Origin: Planotetraspora phitsanulokensis
GTDB taxonomy: Bacteria; Actinomycetota; Actinomycetes; Streptosporangiales; Streptosporangiaceae
DNA: 64,000 nt
NCBI RefSeq assembly: GCF_016863295.1
Contig: NZ_BOOP01000020.1
Coordinates: 62,001 to 126,000 of the forward strand
Reading direction: 5' to 3'
Shown here: positions 52,884 to 57,631 of the stretch, one piece after another
Layout of the letters: each line of letters starts with the position of its first letter
Position numbering within the stretch: position 1 is the stretch's first letter
Notes under the pieces: model-generated
The model's input: the letters and a program-made list of their open reading frames with translations, nothing else
What the model was told of the DNA's origin: nothing
Databases searched by the model: none
Program-made: the position numbers and the translations under genes

Positions 52884-53240
52884 ATGAACAAGTTCGTTCA
52901 CGTGATGCCGCTCGACGACGTCATCAGCCATGAGGGCACGCCGGACTGCATCTGCGGACCGGCCGGGCAGATCGTGAGCGCGGCGGACCTCCTGGAGGAC
53001 CCCGACCTCGACGGCGTCGTCGACGCCGACGACCTGACCGGCTTCGAGGACGAGGACCTCCCGGACGGCGCGTACTCCCCGGACACGGGCGCGGACGACT
53101 GGGATCGGGCCGACGGCCTGGAACAGGCGGACGACGACGAGGGACCGGAGGGCGACCCCCGCCTGGCGGTCTGCATCATCATCTACCACCACTACGCGCT
53201 ACGCCCCTGCCACGAATGGGAAGCCTCCCCCGAGCCCTAA
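52884..53240 (+). CDS. small acidic protein with phage-type DCICGP motif
   Basis: 118 residues; AGGAGGTGG six bases before the ATG makes translation likely. The N-terminus VHVMPLDDVISHEGTPDCICGP and the C-terminus VCIIIYHHYALRP resemble the two ends of short phage and actinobacterial proteins with a 'P-L-x-D-hhxH...DCxCGP ... HHSLDGR' pattern. Here the ends are split by about 55 residues that are more than 40 percent Asp/Glu. Two Cys at each end could bind metal. It is divergent from the GH31 operon. Function unknown. Confidence 0.65.
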   Translation: MNKFVHVMPLDDVISHEGTPDCICGPAGQIVSAADLLEDPDLDGVVDADDLTGFEDEDLPDGAYSPDTGADDWDRADGLEQADDDEGPEGDPRLAVCIIIYHHYALRPCHEWEASPEP

Positions 53241-53256: not shown

Positions 53257-53542
53257 GTGATCATGCACACCTTCGTACACAGGCCTCCCGACCAGCCCTT
53301 TCACAGTGCGTGATCATGCACGCGAGGTCACAGAGGGCAGCCCACACTCTTCACGCCGGGCGTCCGCGTCCGCTTCGGCTCGCGCCGTACGGCAGGCGGG
53401 GCAATTCATGCATGATCACAGACGGGTTCGGCCAGGTCATGGGACAGGCGCGCGAATCTGCGCATGATCACGACAGGCCTCACCGCAGGTAAGCGGGCAC
53501 TCCCCCGAAGGTGTGCATGATCACACCCCAAAACATGATCAC
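53257..53542. repeat. left array of the GTGATCATGCACAC repeat
   Basis: The 318-base gap between two convergent genes carries direct copies at 53257-53270 and 53310-53321, and inverted copies at 53408-53419, 53462-53471, 53511-53524 and (shortened) 53534-53542. Direct copies come first and inverted ones last, so the transcript could fold into alternative long stems. The second copy is preceded by CTCCCGACCAGCCCTTTCAC, a stretch that recurs before a copy at 56000. Nothing else is seen in the gap. Confidence 0.8.
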
Positions 53543-53558
53543 CCCACAAATAAGGGGG

Positions 53559-54161
53559 TCAGGGGAAGGCACGGAGGGCGATTTCGACAGCGCGGGCGAG
53601 TTCCTCGCGGGTGGCGCCGGCGGCGGCGTGGACGGCCAGGCCCTCCGACACGGCCATGATGTAGCGGGCGAGGTCGTCGGGATCGTTCTCGGGGCCCAGG
53701 TCCCCGTCCTCGATCGCGCGGCGGAACCGGTCGCGCATCGCGAGTTCCCCGGCCTTGCGCGCCAGGGCGAGGGTTGAGGCCACCTCGGCGTTGTCGGGCC
53801 CGCAGGACAGGCCGCCCTGAATGGACAGACACCCCGGCGGCCGGCCCGGCATGGTCACGGCCTTGGCGTTCTCCCGCAGGAAGGTCTCGGCGACCTTCCT
53901 TGCGGTCGGCGCGGCGAGGGCGTCGCGCGCGTAGGCCAGGTCGACCTCGGCGTAGCGGGCGAGCGCCTTCCCGAACAGCTCACGCTTGTTGCCGAAGGCG
54001 GCGTACATGCTGGTCTTGTTGATGCCCATCGCCTCGGTGAGGTCACTGAGCGAGGCGCCCTCGTAGCCCTGACGCCAGAAGACCTCAAGCGCACGGTCCA
54101 GTGCCGCGTCGGCGTCGAATCCGCGGGGCCGGCCGATCACGGCCCGTCCAGTGCTGCTCAT
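53559..54161 (-). CDS. TetR/AcrR family repressor
   Basis: 200 residues from the ATG of MSSTGRAVIGRPRGFDADAAL. HTH: ALDRALEVFWRQGYEGASLSDLTEAMGINKTSMYAAFGNKREL, the pattern of the NemR/AcuR-like group with GRPRGFD at the start. The C-terminal domain has CLSIQGGLSCGPDN with two cysteines that might be redox-active, as in NemR. It is divergent from an SDR gene with shared ATCGGTAC-type operators. Confidence 0.9.
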   Translation of the reverse strand: MSSTGRAVIGRPRGFDADAALDRALEVFWRQGYEGASLSDLTEAMGINKTSMYAAFGNKRELFGKALARYAEVDLAYARDALAAPTARKVAETFLRENAKAVTMPGRPPGCLSIQGGLSCGPDNAEVASTLALARKAGELAMRDRFRRAIEDGDLGPENDPDDLARYIMAVSEGLAVHAAAGATREELARAVEIALRAFP

Positions 54162-54184
54162 GTCTTCAGGGTAGCCAACGAAAA

Positions 54185-54243
54185 ACCGATCGGTACACAA
54201 GTCGGCCGACGAGTGCTATCGTCCTTTTCAGTACCAATCGGTA
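54185..54243. promoter_or_regulatory. two TetR-type operators between tetR and SDR genes
   Basis: ACCGATCGGT (54185-54194) is a perfect palindrome. ACCAATCGGT (54233-54242), within GTACCAATCGGTACC, is nearly the same. They are 48 bp apart, one near each gene. Confidence 0.65.
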
Positions 54244-54272
54244 CCGAAGTTTCCGCAGGAAAGGACCGAGTA

Positions 54273-55022
54273 ATGGGACAGCTCGAAGGCAAGACCGCGG
54301 TCGTCACCGGAGGCACCACCGGCATCGGACTCGCCGCGGCCCAGCGGCTGGCACAGGAGGGCGCACTCGTGTTCGTCCTCGGCAGGCGCAAGCCGGAACT
54401 CGACGACGCGGTACGGAAGATCGGCCCCAACGCCGTCGGCGTCCAGGGCGACGTGTCGGACCCGACGGACCTCGACCGCCTCTACACGGCGGTCGGGCAG
54501 CGTGGGCAGGGAGTGGACGTGCTGTTCGCCAACGCGGGCGGCGGCGCCTTCGCCCCGCTCGAGCAGGTCACCGAGGAGCACTTCGACCAGACCTTCGACA
54601 CCAACGTCAAGGGCACGCTCTTCACCGTCCAGAAGGCGCTGCCGCTGCTCAACGACGGCGCGTCGATCGTCTTGACCTCCTCCTCCAGCGCGGACTCCGG
54701 CAGCGAGGCCTTCGGTGTGTACGCGGCGTCCAAGGCGGCCGTCCGCTCCTTCGCCCGCACCTGGGCCAACGAGCTCAGGGGCCGCGGCATCCGGGTGAAC
54801 GCCATCACTCCCGGGGCGGTCGACACCCCCGGATTCAGCGGCCTGGCCCCCGACGAGCAGCAGGCCGAGCAGCTCAAGGGCCATATGGCGAGCCAGGTGC
54901 CCATGGGCCGGCTGGGCCGGCCGGAGGAGATCGCCGACGCGGTCCTGTTCCTCGCCTCCGGCCAGAGCACCTTCGTCACCGGCGCCAACCTCTACGTCGA
55001 CGGCGGCCTCAACCAGATCTGA
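54273..55022 (+). CDS. short-chain dehydrogenase/reductase (SDR)
   Basis: 249 residues from the ATG of MGQLEGKTAVVTGG, with GGAAAGG upstream. The Rossmann motif TGGTTGIG, the NAG motif LFANAGGG, the catalytic Ser in SSSSADSG and YAASK are all in place, with PGAVDTPG and the C-terminal YVDGGLNQI. Arg at the end of beta-2 (VLGRRK) favours NADPH. It is the likely repressed target of the divergent TetR gene and is followed by an LLM oxidoreductase gene. Confidence 0.93.
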   Translation: MGQLEGKTAVVTGGTTGIGLAAAQRLAQEGALVFVLGRRKPELDDAVRKIGPNAVGVQGDVSDPTDLDRLYTAVGQRGQGVDVLFANAGGGAFAPLEQVTEEHFDQTFDTNVKGTLFTVQKALPLLNDGASIVLTSSSSADSGSEAFGVYAASKAAVRSFARTWANELRGRGIRVNAITPGAVDTPGFSGLAPDEQQAEQLKGHMASQVPMGRLGRPEEIADAVLFLASGQSTFVTGANLYVDGGLNQI

Positions 55023-55055
55023 GACCAGAACTGAGACCAGGACTGAGACCGGCTC
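55020..55055. repeat. 12-bp tandem repeat starting at the SDR stop codon
   Basis: TGAGACCAGAAC, TGAGACCAGGAC and TGAGACCGGCTC follow one another; the first TGA is the SDR stop, and each unit repeats the stop in frame. A decayed fourth unit follows. Confidence 0.75.
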
Positions 55056-55089
55056 TGGAACCAACGACAGACCGACAGGAGCGTCAACG

Positions 55090-55950
55090 ATGGACCTGGG
55101 ACGAACGGGAATCTGGAGCACGGAGCTCCGCCTCGGCGATCCGGGCGAGACAGCGGAGGCCGCGGCCGAACTCGACGATCTCGGCTGGGGAACACTGTGG
55201 ATCCCCGGCCTGGGCGGCGGCGACGTCCTCGGCGACGTGGAAAGGCTGCTGCGCGCCACCCGTGCGACCACGGTGGCCACCGGCGTCATCAGCATCTGGC
55301 GGCACCACGCCGAGGAGATCGCCCGGGGTCACGCCGCACTCCGGGAGGCGTACGGCGCACGCGTCCTCACGGGCCTCGGGGTGAGCGACCCCGCCGCCGC
55401 GGATGGGGCGGGCCGCCCGTTCCGGCCGGTGGAGGACATGAACGGGTATCTCGACCGCCTCGACCACACGGGCGCCCCCCTCCCTGCAGACGAGCGGATC
55501 CTCGCCGCGCTGAGCCCGCGCCTCGTACGGCTGGGCGGGGAGCGCACCGCGGGGGTGCACCCGTTCATGGTCACGCCCGAGTCCACGGCGGCCACCCGGG
55601 AGTCGCTTGGGCGGGCGCCCACGCTCGCCCCCTACCAGGCCGTCGTGCTGGACGGGGATCCCGGCAGGGCGCGCGCCACCGCGCGCGGCTTCCTCGGGCC
55701 GTTCCTGACCATGGACCACTACGCCAGGAGCCTGCGCCGCCAGGGGTTCGCCGACGAGGATCTGGCCGGTGGCGGCAGCGACCGCCTGATCGACCGAGTC
55801 GTGGCCTGGGGGGAGGTCGAGACGATCGCCGGTCGCCTGAGAGAACACCACGACGCTGGGGCCGATCACGTCGCCCTCCACGTCCTGCGCGCGGACGGGG
55901 CGTTCCCGCGCCGCGAGTGGCGGGAACTGGCACCCCTGACCCGTGCGTGA
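55090..55950 (+). CDS. LLM class F420-dependent oxidoreductase
   Basis: 286 residues, ATG with AGGAG nine bases upstream. The N-terminal AELDDLGWGTLWIPGLGG and ATGVISIWRHHAEEIARGHAAL belong to the TIGR03620 group of luciferase-like proteins, with HVALHVL near the C-terminus. F420 is an actinobacterial deazaflavin. With the SDR it probably handles a small-molecule redox reaction induced through the TetR. Its stop codon lies inside a copy of the GTGATCATGCACAC repeat. Confidence 0.88.
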   Translation: MDLGRTGIWSTELRLGDPGETAEAAAELDDLGWGTLWIPGLGGGDVLGDVERLLRATRATTVATGVISIWRHHAEEIARGHAALREAYGARVLTGLGVSDPAAADGAGRPFRPVEDMNGYLDRLDHTGAPLPADERILAALSPRLVRLGGERTAGVHPFMVTPESTAATRESLGRAPTLAPYQAVVLDGDPGRARATARGFLGPFLTMDHYARSLRRQGFADEDLAGGGSDRLIDRVVAWGEVETIAGRLREHHDAGADHVALHVLRADGAFPRREWRELAPLTRA

Positions 55951-56092
55951 TCATGCACACGTTCGGGCCGAAACCCTCCGACCAGCCTCTTCACGGGTCG
56001 TGATCATGCACACATTCTAGGAGGCCCCTCTGTGATCACGGTCGGTATTCCTCCAGTTCAGCGCATGTTCTGTCGAATGTGTGCATGATCAC
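55947..56092. repeat. right array of the GTGATCATGCACAC repeat
   Basis: Direct copies at 55947-55960 and 56000-56013, an inverted copy at 56079-56092 and a GTGATCAC half-copy at 56032-56039. The first copy supplies the last codon and stop of the LLM gene. The stretch before the second copy, CTCCGACCAGCCTCTTCAC, matches the left array. The array fills the gap between two convergent genes and may act as terminator. Confidence 0.8.
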
Positions 56093-56101
56093 GCTGAGGG
56101 G

Positions 56102-57631
56102 TTATCGGTGGGCGAACGCCCCCATCGCGGGGAGCGCCCGATCGTCGTAGCCGAACAGCGCCTGGTTCTCCCAGCCGTTTCCGGAGGAGGGATCGGCGGG
56201 GTCCCAGCCGTTGCCGGCCACGGCGGTCCAGGTGGGCTCCCAGTACACGGCCCCGAGCCCGCGCCCGTCCGGCACCGCCTGGACGATGCTCAGCACGTCG
56301 CGGAACATCGCGGTCTGGCCCGCGCGCGTGGCCGGATAGTTCGGGTACGGCTCGGCCGAGGTGATGATGTTGGTGAGGGGGTCGTTCTCGGCGTCGGTGA
56401 AGGGATAGGCCGTCTCCGCGACGAGCACGGGCTTGCCGTACCGGGCGGCGATGTCGTCGATGTTCGCCTGGAAGGCCCCGAGCGTCCCGTGCCAGTACGG
56501 GTAGTAGGAGACGCCGATCACGTCGTAGCGGACCCCGTTGGCCGCGGCGCTGTCGAACCACCAGCGGAACAGCCCGTTGTTGCCGCCCTCGGCCACGTGC
56601 AGGACGACCATCGTCTCGGCCGAGACGTCCTTCACCGCCTGGTATCCGGCGTTCAGCAGGCCGGCGAGGTCGGCGAAGTGCGAACTGCGGCCCTCCTCCC
56701 ACAGGATCCCGTCGTTGATCTCGTTGCCGACCTGGACCATGTCCGCCGTGGTCCCCTGCGCCTTCAGCGCGTTGAGGACGTCGTAGGTGTGGTCGTAGAG
56801 CGCGGTCTTCAGCCCCGCATAGTCCAGGTCCGCCCACGCGGCGGGCTTGTACTGCTTGCCCGGGTCGGCCCACGCGTCGGAGTAGTGGAAGTCGATCAGC
56901 AGCCCCATGCCGAGCGCCTTGACGCGTCTGGCCATGGCCAGCACGTGTGCCTTGTCGTTGTAGCCGTCGGCCGGGTCGACCCACACCTTGAGCCGCACGT
57001 AGTCCGCCCCGGCGCCGTGCATGATCTTCAGTGGGTCGGCTCGCTTTCCGCTCGCGGTGAAGTACCTGCCGCCGTTCGCCTCCGACTTGGGCAGGCTCGA
57101 GGTGTCGGCTCCCTTCACGGCGAGCGTCGCCTTCCCCGGGGCGAAGGTGACGTCGTCGAAGTCGGCCCAGCCTCCGGCGGCCGCGTCGGTGGCCAGGCTG
57201 ATCGTGCACCTGCCCCGCGTCACCTTCTGGGTGACCGCGATGTGCAGCCACTCGGAACCGGACGCCGGGACCCAGGTGGACGTGTCCGGCGAGCCGCAGT
57301 CCTTCAGGGTGATCCTGCTCTGGTTCATCGCACCGGCACGCACCCAGGCGCGCAGCGTGTAGTAGCCGTCCCGCAGCCCGGACACCGTCTGGCGGGTCTC
57401 GGCCCGGGACGCCGTCGCCGCCTGCTGCGTCAGCCGTGACGAGCCGCTGTGCCCTCCTGCCTGGGTGAGAGCCGACGCGCCCTTGCCCGTGGACGTCCGC
57501 CAGCCGGTGACTCCCTTCTCGAAACCGCTGTTGGTGACCGCGGGAGGACCGGACGAGGCGGCCCGTGCCGGTTGGATCGCGACGAGCGTCGCGGCGGCGC
57601 ACAGGGTGAGCGCCATCAGGGTCTTGTTCAT
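56102..57631 (-). CDS. secreted GH53 endo-beta-1,4-galactanase with carbohydrate-binding module
   Basis: 509 residues. Signal peptide to about residue 25 (VAIQPARAASS). Residues 30-165 form a CBM-like beta-sandwich (NSGFEKGVTGW, DGYYTLRAWVRAG, FDDVTF). The GH53 barrel follows: GADYVRLKVWVDPADGYND, acid/base Glu304 in VQVGNEINDG, nucleophile Glu406 in PVLVAETAYP and YWEPTW. It cuts beta-1,4-galactan side chains of pectin outside the cell. It lies downstream of the GH42 gene on the same strand and feeds the ABC transporter encoded on the other side. Confidence 0.94.
   Translation of the reverse strand: MNKTLMALTLCAAATLVAIQPARAASSGPPAVTNSGFEKGVTGWRTSTGKGASALTQAGGHSGSSRLTQQAATASRAETRQTVSGLRDGYYTLRAWVRAGAMNQSRITLKDCGSPDTSTWVPASGSEWLHIAVTQKVTRGRCTISLATDAAAGGWADFDDVTFAPGKATLAVKGADTSSLPKSEANGGRYFTASGKRADPLKIMHGAGADYVRLKVWVDPADGYNDKAHVLAMARRVKALGMGLLIDFHYSDAWADPGKQYKPAAWADLDYAGLKTALYDHTYDVLNALKAQGTTADMVQVGNEINDGILWEEGRSSHFADLAGLLNAGYQAVKDVSAETMVVLHVAEGGNNGLFRWWFDSAAANGVRYDVIGVSYYPYWHGTLGAFQANIDDIAARYGKPVLVAETAYPFTDAENDPLTNIITSAEPYPNYPATRAGQTAMFRDVLSIVQAVPDGRGLGAVYWEPTWTAVAGNGWDPADPSSGNGWENQALFGYDDRALPAMGAFAHR

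Follow-up and report, generated by a model that had tools for sequence, protein, structure and literature searches.

Two convergent intergenic gaps in the actinomycete Planotetraspora phitsanulokensis hold oriented copies of a short repeat on either side of three genes, which encode a TetR-family regulator, a short-chain dehydrogenase (SDR) and a luciferase-like monooxygenase (LLM). What are these repeats, and why do they lie at the ends of these genes? The locus belongs to a 64,000-nt stretch of DNA (the window). A preliminary description of it had proposed an undescribed repeat family, either a terminator or mobile family of the repetitive extragenic palindromic (REP) kind or a footprint of how the block was inserted. 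The window repeats are members of a large family of oriented short repeats that extends across the genome. Their placement suggests that they probably act as end-of-gene, terminator-like signals. In the reading that we prefer, with a probability of roughly 0.4, the arrays would be oriented, polar, factor-dependent 3'-end or terminator elements.

The repeat unit and its place at gene ends

The genome with the window (G000) holds 27 exact copies of GTGATCATGCACAC and 509 of TGATCATGC, compared with 0 and 4, respectively, in the reversed control. The search that had been proposed thus placed the motif above chance, and the claim that it occurs only in the two gaps held for window copies with 0-2 mismatches, all of which are inside these gaps, but not for the genome. 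A profile of 153 distinct copies flanked on both sides by TGATCATG gave a unit of 53 bp: CG followed by TGATCATGCACANRTTCG (positions 52-53 and 1-18), a variable stretch, YGACCTGC (32-39), A or T at 44 and a C-rich run. The same core layout is met along the sense strand, from a C-rich leader through CGTGATCATGCACANRTTCG to YGACCTGC. Same-strand neighbors less than 400 bp apart were spaced by exactly 53 bp in 78 of 91 cases and by 106 in 3 (loci L058-L097); in a larger set, 195 spacings were 53 bp and 5 were 52 bp.

To place copies relative to genes, genes were called with a purpose-built codon-model caller and copies were located by a position-weight scan at a threshold of 8, which gave 165 hits versus 1 on reversed sequence. 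Two contiguous samples from the genus Planotetraspora (genomes G000-G004, genus g1) were used, contig C1 of G003 (382 kb) and the first 400 kb of contig C1 of G002, together with regions of G000 selected for holding copies; gaps of at least 60 nt were counted. The two contigs are orthologous to each other and cannot be counted as independent sets of loci. On these contigs copies occupied 11/70 convergent, 17/231 co-directional and 0/110 divergent gaps. The convergent gaps were occupied more often than the others in both (5/30 and 6/40 versus 9/166 and 8/175; p = 0.04 and 0.03). The first same-sense copy lay within 40 nt of the stop codon in 14/14 and 13/14 cases, where uniform placement in the same gaps would give 1.7 and 1.8. 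With a stricter definition of the core the corresponding counts were 12/14 and 11/14, and 0/161 divergent gaps were occupied over four contigs. The picked G000 regions showed 12/44 convergent, 11/147 co-directional and 2/76 divergent gaps occupied; here the first same-sense copy was no more than 40 nt from the stop in 22 of 24 cases (6.4 expected). Anchoring to stops was also seen in two other genera, g93 (9/11 within 40 nt, 1.8 expected) and g99 (3/4, 0.9 expected), in which copies occupied 0/51 divergent gaps. The position of copies relative to gene ends, another check that had been suggested, is thus same-sense and 3' of stops.

In the sampled Planotetraspora DNA, including the picked G000 regions, 51 of 95 same-strand chains of copies follow the end of a same-strand gene, and 48 of these 51 start -13 to 58 nt from its stop codon. 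Ten start at exactly -3, where the TGA of the gene is the TGA of the core, as is the case for the LLM gene of the window. The same sharing of TGA was found in 2 of 4 cases in G225, a genome of genus g99, and at one coding-like open reading frame (ORF) each in genomes G432 and G579. According to passages of PMC12306157, which cite earlier work, REPs within 15 nt of a stop codon are said to stall ribosomes in Escherichia coli. Control at the level of translation, with ribosomes stalling at the stop codon, would have this precedent and would suit the typical distance of -3 to 20 nt; nevertheless, it leaves several phased copies and the inverted partner unexplained, and we regard it as highly improbable here. 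Three arrays lie 13 nt from a called opposite-strand gene start (L064, 5079-5139; G003:C1:305128; G002:C1:307978), perhaps because the caller overlooked a gene or put it on the wrong strand.

When the threshold was relaxed, both orientations were present in 17 of 44 occupied gaps, as in a 586-nt gap with five direct copies followed by five inverted ones, and 9 of 17 occupied convergent gaps were one-sided. Equal copy number in the two arms was not significant (10/36 equal, p = 0.18). The genes at array ends have mixed functions (10 tested).

Within the unit, mutual information was highest for adjacent columns (13-14, 43-44 and 21-22), with weaker values for distant pairs (30-44, z 5.0; 10-28, z 4.8). 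A candidate stem, 11-38 to 16-33, showed no significant covariation (z at most 2.8; 135 units, 1378 column pairs), with 34 C-C combinations at pair 13-36, and an RNA stem inside the unit was rejected for this reason. Positions 37 and 44 accept either A or T, an interchange that suggests reading of the site as double-stranded DNA. A tandem mini-ORF (16 codons from ATG to the next TGA; 53 = 3x17+2) was ruled out as well, since the conserved bases lack a codon pattern and the outer copies of genus g99 read TTG TAG. Helical phasing, with 53 bp as five turns, was dropped because other lineages use 37-41, 44 or 32-55 bp.

The repeats might instead be sites for a chromosome-organizing protein or a topoisomerase, easing supercoils between convergent genes like the gyrase-binding bacterial interspersed mosaic elements (BIMEs). 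The enrichment in convergent gaps and the apparent double-stranded reading would agree with such a role. Against it, anchoring and orientation follow single stop codons, many cases are co-directional, and core spacings across lineages (53, 52, 44, 37-41 and 32-55 bp) are not fixed helical turns; we consider this improbable.

In the window itself, a scan for GTGATCATGCACAC with up to three mismatches gave 15 matches versus 3.84 expected, with a maximum of 10 in 100 shuffles. Eight of them are in the two gaps: five exact copies (53257+, 53511-, 55947+, 56000+ and 56079-) and three degenerate ones (53310+, 1 mismatch; 53458-, 2; 53406-, 3). A ninth, at 53534-, is the tail-less GTGATCATG, so that the nine copies of the preliminary description stand if degenerate copies count. 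Its other details were borne out. In either gap direct copies come first and inverted ones follow, the LLM gene stops at the TGA (55948-55950) of a TGATCATG core, and the longer stretch noted on both sides is real, being the rest of the 53-bp unit (53258 to 53311 and 55948 to 56001). The gap-1 same-sense array starts 17 nt past the stop of a 118-aa ORF, and the outer core of the gap-2 inverted unit is 10 nt from the GH53 stop. No U-run was seen 3' of the window arrays, and Rfam returned for them a single chance match, to a miRNA model, at 23.7 bits versus a gathering score of 69. All features are collected in Table 1. The 118-aa ORF is acidic, with a C-terminal CIIIYHHYALRPCHEW-type stretch, and its DNA is kept 5' of the gap-1 array in three named Planotetraspora loci. 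Near-copies of a tandem 12-bp sequence (ACCAGAACTGAG) run from the 3' end of the SDR gene into the interval ahead of LLM (55012-55059).

Table 1. Arrays and genes around the two convergent gaps, in window positions; R1 is the unit model.
Feature	Position	Strand	Details
Gap-1 same-sense array	53258-53323	+	full 53-bp unit 53258-53310, second core at 53311; R1 53258-53318, E 1.4e-14
Gap-1 inverted array	53406-53524	-	cores 53411, 53463, 53516; spacings 52 and 53; R1 53411-53462, E 4.8e-7, and 53463-53523, E 1.6e-14
Tail-less extra core GTGATCATG	53534-53542	-	adjoins TetR stop
Gap-2 same-sense array	55947-56013	+	unit 55948-56000, core 56001; R1 55948-56008, E 4.2e-14
Gap-2 inverted unit	56033-56092	-	outer core 56084-56091; R1 56033-56091, E 1.1e-11
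118-aa ORF 5' of gap-1 array	52884-53240	+	no Pfam match at E 0.001
TetR-family regulator, convergent partner in gap 1	53559-54161	-	PF00440, E 2.7e-11
Short-chain dehydrogenase (SDR)	54273-55022	+	PF13561, E 1.9e-62
Luciferase-like monooxygenase (LLM)	55090-55950	+	stop within gap-2 array; PF00296, E 3.2e-8
GH53 glycosidase, convergent partner in gap 2	56102-57631	-	PF07745, E 1.1e-124

Orthologous loci and unit turnover

Among named species, the LLM protein is matched most closely in Planotetraspora mira and P. silvatica, at 94%, with P. kaengkrachanensis at 89%. Over SDR and LLM together, P. kaengkrachanensis is the most distant of the four species (92.4-93.0% identity to the other three, which share 94.2-96.0% with one another). 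All three congeners carry arrays in the orthologous gap 1, with units that are still recognizable (identity up to 50/53), and the gap-1 array looks old. None has an array after LLM, and the bracketing of the block therefore belongs to the window species. At gap 2, the place of the array is taken in P. mira and P. silvatica by a GC-rich hairpin, perfectly paired over 19 or 18 positions (-52.8 and -52.1 kcal/mol in 73 nt). The left arm after LLM in P. kaengkrachanensis resembles the hairpin arm by eye, and no GH53 match was found in 5 kb at that locus.

As the simplest reading of these four species, the hairpin would be ancestral and the gap-2 array gained in the lineage of the window. A miniature inverted-repeat transposable element would bring terminal inverted repeats and a target-site duplication. 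The change at this one apparent gain locus does not look like a simple insertion, since it alters the spacer together with the stop codons of the two genes, LLM ending in LTRA instead of LTR before its stop and GH53 in HR (TAA) instead of HQ (TGA). When the first gap-2 unit was compared with 579 other copies in the fetched loci, the nearest was a gap-1 unit of P. kaengkrachanensis (43/53; the 99.9th percentile of the background for unit similarity is 41/53). This likeness suggests that the gap-2 array was seeded from the array 2.7 kb away.

The proposal that the arrays are a footprint of the insertion of the TetR-SDR-LLM block draws on their presence on both sides in the window species. The block is retained in all three congeners, each of which has an array on one side of it; two of them have a hairpin in place of the gap-2 array, and genes of other kinds elsewhere in the genus are followed by similar arrays. 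This proposal can therefore be practically dismissed. Relatives that lack the repeats and keep the same genes, which had been named as a counter-test for the family, exist for gap 2 only.

Conservation of the unit was followed between G003 and G004 in 51 orthologous units, present at 13/13 loci, with the motif required in G003 only. Identity was 99.3% at positions 1-9, 97.5% at 15-18 and 91.2% at 32-39, compared with 81-82% in the unit spacers and 96.7% in aligned flanks. These values indicate that the conserved blocks are under purifying selection. Of the G003 loci with at least two copies, 12/13 are occupied in G002 too; one G003 array locus (60118) is absent in G002, where the caller places a different gene.

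The units also turn over. Rank-matched units of the two arms of a locus were at least 70% identical at variable positions in 5 of 45 pairs, a level reached by 2% of 101 mismatched arm pairs and 0.19% of 1057 between-locus pairs; units at equal rank thus appear sometimes to be copies of one another. Outer arm pairs share spacers more often (47% versus 35%). Less similar, non-homogenized pairs showed no excess spacer identity. Pairing of the spacers is therefore not maintained, and a long RNA hairpin kept by compensation was rejected. Letter-identical adjacent 53-bp units (G002:C1:150747/150800 and G000:C11:221054/221107) are best taken as recent single-unit duplications. The four congeners have 551-688 tandem pairs and the window species 134, a difference that would fit decay of the family, or a smaller expansion, in this lineage.

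Such turnover fits the main rival of the preferred reading, namely REP- or REPIN-like selfish repeats, copied by an enzyme or by recombination, that survive only where they are harmless, just after stop codons, and have no function for the host. Inverted copying between arms, the likeness of the first gap-2 unit to a gap-1 unit, the locus present in G003 and absent in G002, and the sporadic high-copy amplification described below all agree with this explanation. Nevertheless, mere tolerance would not lead one to expect same-sense copies so near the stop (within 40 nt) where gaps are long, and 12/13 multi-copy G003 loci are shared with G002. No match to the 53-bp tandem pattern was found in viral contigs (a phage collection was not searched), nor to one 521-bp array in plasmids. 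The REP-associated tyrosine transposase (RAYT), whose presence had been raised as a check, gave no match (PF01797, Y1 transposase) in G000, G002, G003 or G004. No PF01797 match was found in 9 of 13 array-bearing genomes, whereas G001 (fragments), G037, G125 and G159 have one. The selfish explanation is possible, though on the unlikely side. In G001 there are four PF01797 fragments, one with internal stops.

Related cores in other genomes and known repeat systems

Within the family Streptosporangiaceae, a sequence-only unit model found matches in 18/200 genomes at E up to 0.001 (match counts per genome are lower bounds). The matches were strong in Planotetraspora and g93 and extended to g34 and part of g99; six others had one hit each. 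The 53-bp tandem pattern occurs in 15/341 genomes of the family and 6/68 genera, including 5/5 genomes of Planotetraspora and 5/15 of g99. Among the matches listed, the dialects are TGATCATGCACAGGTTCCCG in g93, CGTGATCTTGCAGAAACTCGCA in g34 and, in g99, CGTGATCTTGTAGTTTGTCGCA outermost and CGTGATCATGCA inside. In five g99 genomes (G159, G225, G232, G238 and G241) the outermost CGTGATCTTGTAGTTTGTCGCA copies are alike between loci and unlike the inner copies; rank within the array may matter there.

The core CGTGATC[A/T]TGCA extends further. It is present in 22-289 copies in 8 of 394 genomes of the class, from five families (G000, G159, G091, G093, G414, G432, G491 and G579). The other class genomes have at most 8 copies; 290/394 genomes have at least one, and the reversed control gave at most 2. 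The tails after the core differ, as the core spacings do (37-41, 32-55 and 44 bp): ATCCCGCCACCC in G093, [CG]RTCCTGGG in G432, CGTTCGCCC in G491 and CGCCAGCGCA in G579. In a sample of the phylum (296 genomes, 270 outside the class), a facing-core pattern, which is stricter than the core count, occurred in G000 and G093 only. Coding-like stops near a chain were found in other families at -3, 11 and 42 nt in G432, 19 nt in G491 and -3 and 40 nt in G579. In some loci of G093, G579 and G491 the facing cores form compact hairpins. At L297 (G491) and L327 (G579), an ordinary GC-rich hairpin follows the stop of a gene that we take, from its sequence, to be rpmB-like, and a core hairpin lies nearer the other side of the gap; both types of gene end are present within one gap.

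No description of the family was found in the open-licence full-text literature, and 11-letter strings of the core or its complement returned papers that, among the matches listed, are all unrelated by title. To this extent the family is undescribed, as had been claimed. The closest known elements are REPs and BIMEs, which passages of PMC3733652 describe as hundreds of extragenic copies, mostly 3' of genes in convergent or unidirectional gaps, often in inverted pairs and patchy in distribution; CGTC REPs, too, are said to lack a dedicated transposase. The word Actinobacteria has 0 occurrences in the main text of that paper. The present repeats likewise number in the hundreds, are patchy in distribution and extragenic, and lie 3' of genes, rarely in divergent gaps and often in inverted pairs. 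They differ in being a 53-bp unit, tandem in one orientation, often mirrored and stop-anchored around a 12-bp core, and not a self-complementary unit of 20-40 bp, with no maintained stem. The unit consensus begins CGTGATCATG, with no GTAG or CGTC tag. Unlike for GTAG REPs, the cognate RAYT match is missing in G000, G002 and G003, as in most carriers. On the best reading, the family behaves like REP/BIME elements and is not a member. The earlier assignment to a REP-like terminator or mobile family is thus retained for the placement, with a plausibly terminator-like role, and abandoned for REPs in the strict sense, for which tag, stem and RAYT fail.

Among the mycobacterial interspersed repetitive units (MIRUs), ETR-D/MIRU04 is given in part of PMC2453075 as 77- and 53-bp units between senX3 and regX3. 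Compared by description only, it is also actinobacterial, intergenic and tandem, with one unit of 53 bp; it differs in sitting between these two genes. A CRISPR array was rejected on two grounds, a conserved block in the spacers (32-39) and the mirrored layout of many arrays; no search for cas genes was made. The DNA uptake sequences of Neisseriaceae have a short conserved core, high copy number and genus dialects, and inverted pairs of them serve as terminators. The Planotetraspora repeats are sparser, mostly intergenic and in phased arrays; the arrays and this placement argue against an uptake sequence.

A candidate factor-dependent gene end

The arrays occupy the same slot as intrinsic GC-hairpin terminators, with which one orthologous exchange was seen, but have long loops, an AT-rich core, oriented units and, in the window, no U-run. 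A compact GC hairpin with a U-run was rejected as a description: local hairpins are weaker at array ends (median -15.8 kcal/mol, n = 33, versus -24.8, n = 182, at convergent ends), a contrast that is marginal when composition is controlled. Facing arrays could still fold in the transcript as a long hairpin, acting without a special factor as an intrinsic-type terminator or a stabilizer of the 3' untranslated region. The gap-2 array of the window is predicted to form a 20-pair outer stem (-66.3 kcal/mol over 150 nt, z -6.4), and the compact facing-core hairpins in three other genomes and the plain hairpin in the orthologous gap 2 point the same way. Against this, most occupied gaps lack one of the two orientations, arm spacers are not kept complementary, the unit stem lacks covariation, the window arrays are not followed by a U-run, and long loops would be slow to fold. 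We regard folding alone as distinctly unlikely.

A factor is favored over a fold because the stem lacks covariation and non-homogenized arms show no compensation. In the preferred reading, the end of a gene with an array is typically followed by one to six same-sense 53-bp units, which begin anywhere from the stop codon to about 35 nt beyond it. An inverted array often mirrors them, serving the convergent gene or, in a co-directional gap, facing back. The oriented core would be recognized by a sequence-specific factor, as suggested by the A/T interchange at 37 and 44 and by the shared core. Bound to DNA, the factor would form a roadblock; alternatively, the C-rich transcript would be a Rho-like loading signal. 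In either case, RNA polymerase arriving from the gene side would be halted at the array. The RNA-level, Rho-like variant also fits because the sense strand near the stop is C-rich and G-poor: between stop and first core, C is 0.46 and G 0.25, whereas other gene ends have 0.39 and 0.34 over their first 15 nt. The skew is stronger in three G093 loci (C 0.48-0.58, G about 0.15). A job at gene ends is favored by where the arrays lie and how they are oriented, by the scarcity of copies between divergent genes, by the selection seen on the blocks and by the exchange of hairpin and array. What is inferred is that transcription stops there, that the effect is polar and adds up over copies, and that a factor of either kind exists.

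Several observations weigh against this reading. Among the 95 same-strand chains, 25 follow the start of an opposite-strand gene and are unanchored, and 19 start within called genes. At the looser threshold, 8/22 co-directional gaps hold antisense copies only and 5/44 occupied gaps are divergent. Arrays are found at 50/606 ends with a gap of at least 60 nt, in a sample that includes the picked regions, and they are therefore not a general terminator. In short loci of other families, several of only 600 nt, 12/18 chains lacked a coding-like stop in the 120 nt before them. Base composition accounts for most of the hairpin contrast (p = 0.054 versus shuffles), four G432 loci show little excess of C over G (C 0.32-0.38, G 0.29-0.31), and the exchange of hairpin and array was seen at one locus. 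Sporadic high-copy amplification across genomes and the copying of units between arms and loci fit a selfish family as well. Both termination and the factor are putative, being read from the DNA.

A wider and rather doubtful extension of the preferred reading is an unrecognized, sequence-specific system of polar termination or 3'-end formation in actinomycetes. A patchily distributed factor would read CGTGATC[A/T]TGCA, and phased dialect arrays would load gene ends and could replace intrinsic terminators together with both stop codons. The 12-bp core is amplified in distant actinobacterial families and not in most sampled genomes between them, which raises a concrete question: does a cognate factor travel with its sites? 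If the repeats are selfish, they would represent a REP-like superfamily with no need of a RAYT. If they terminate transcription, they would provide a third solution for gene ends in high-GC bacteria, and a usable insulator part.

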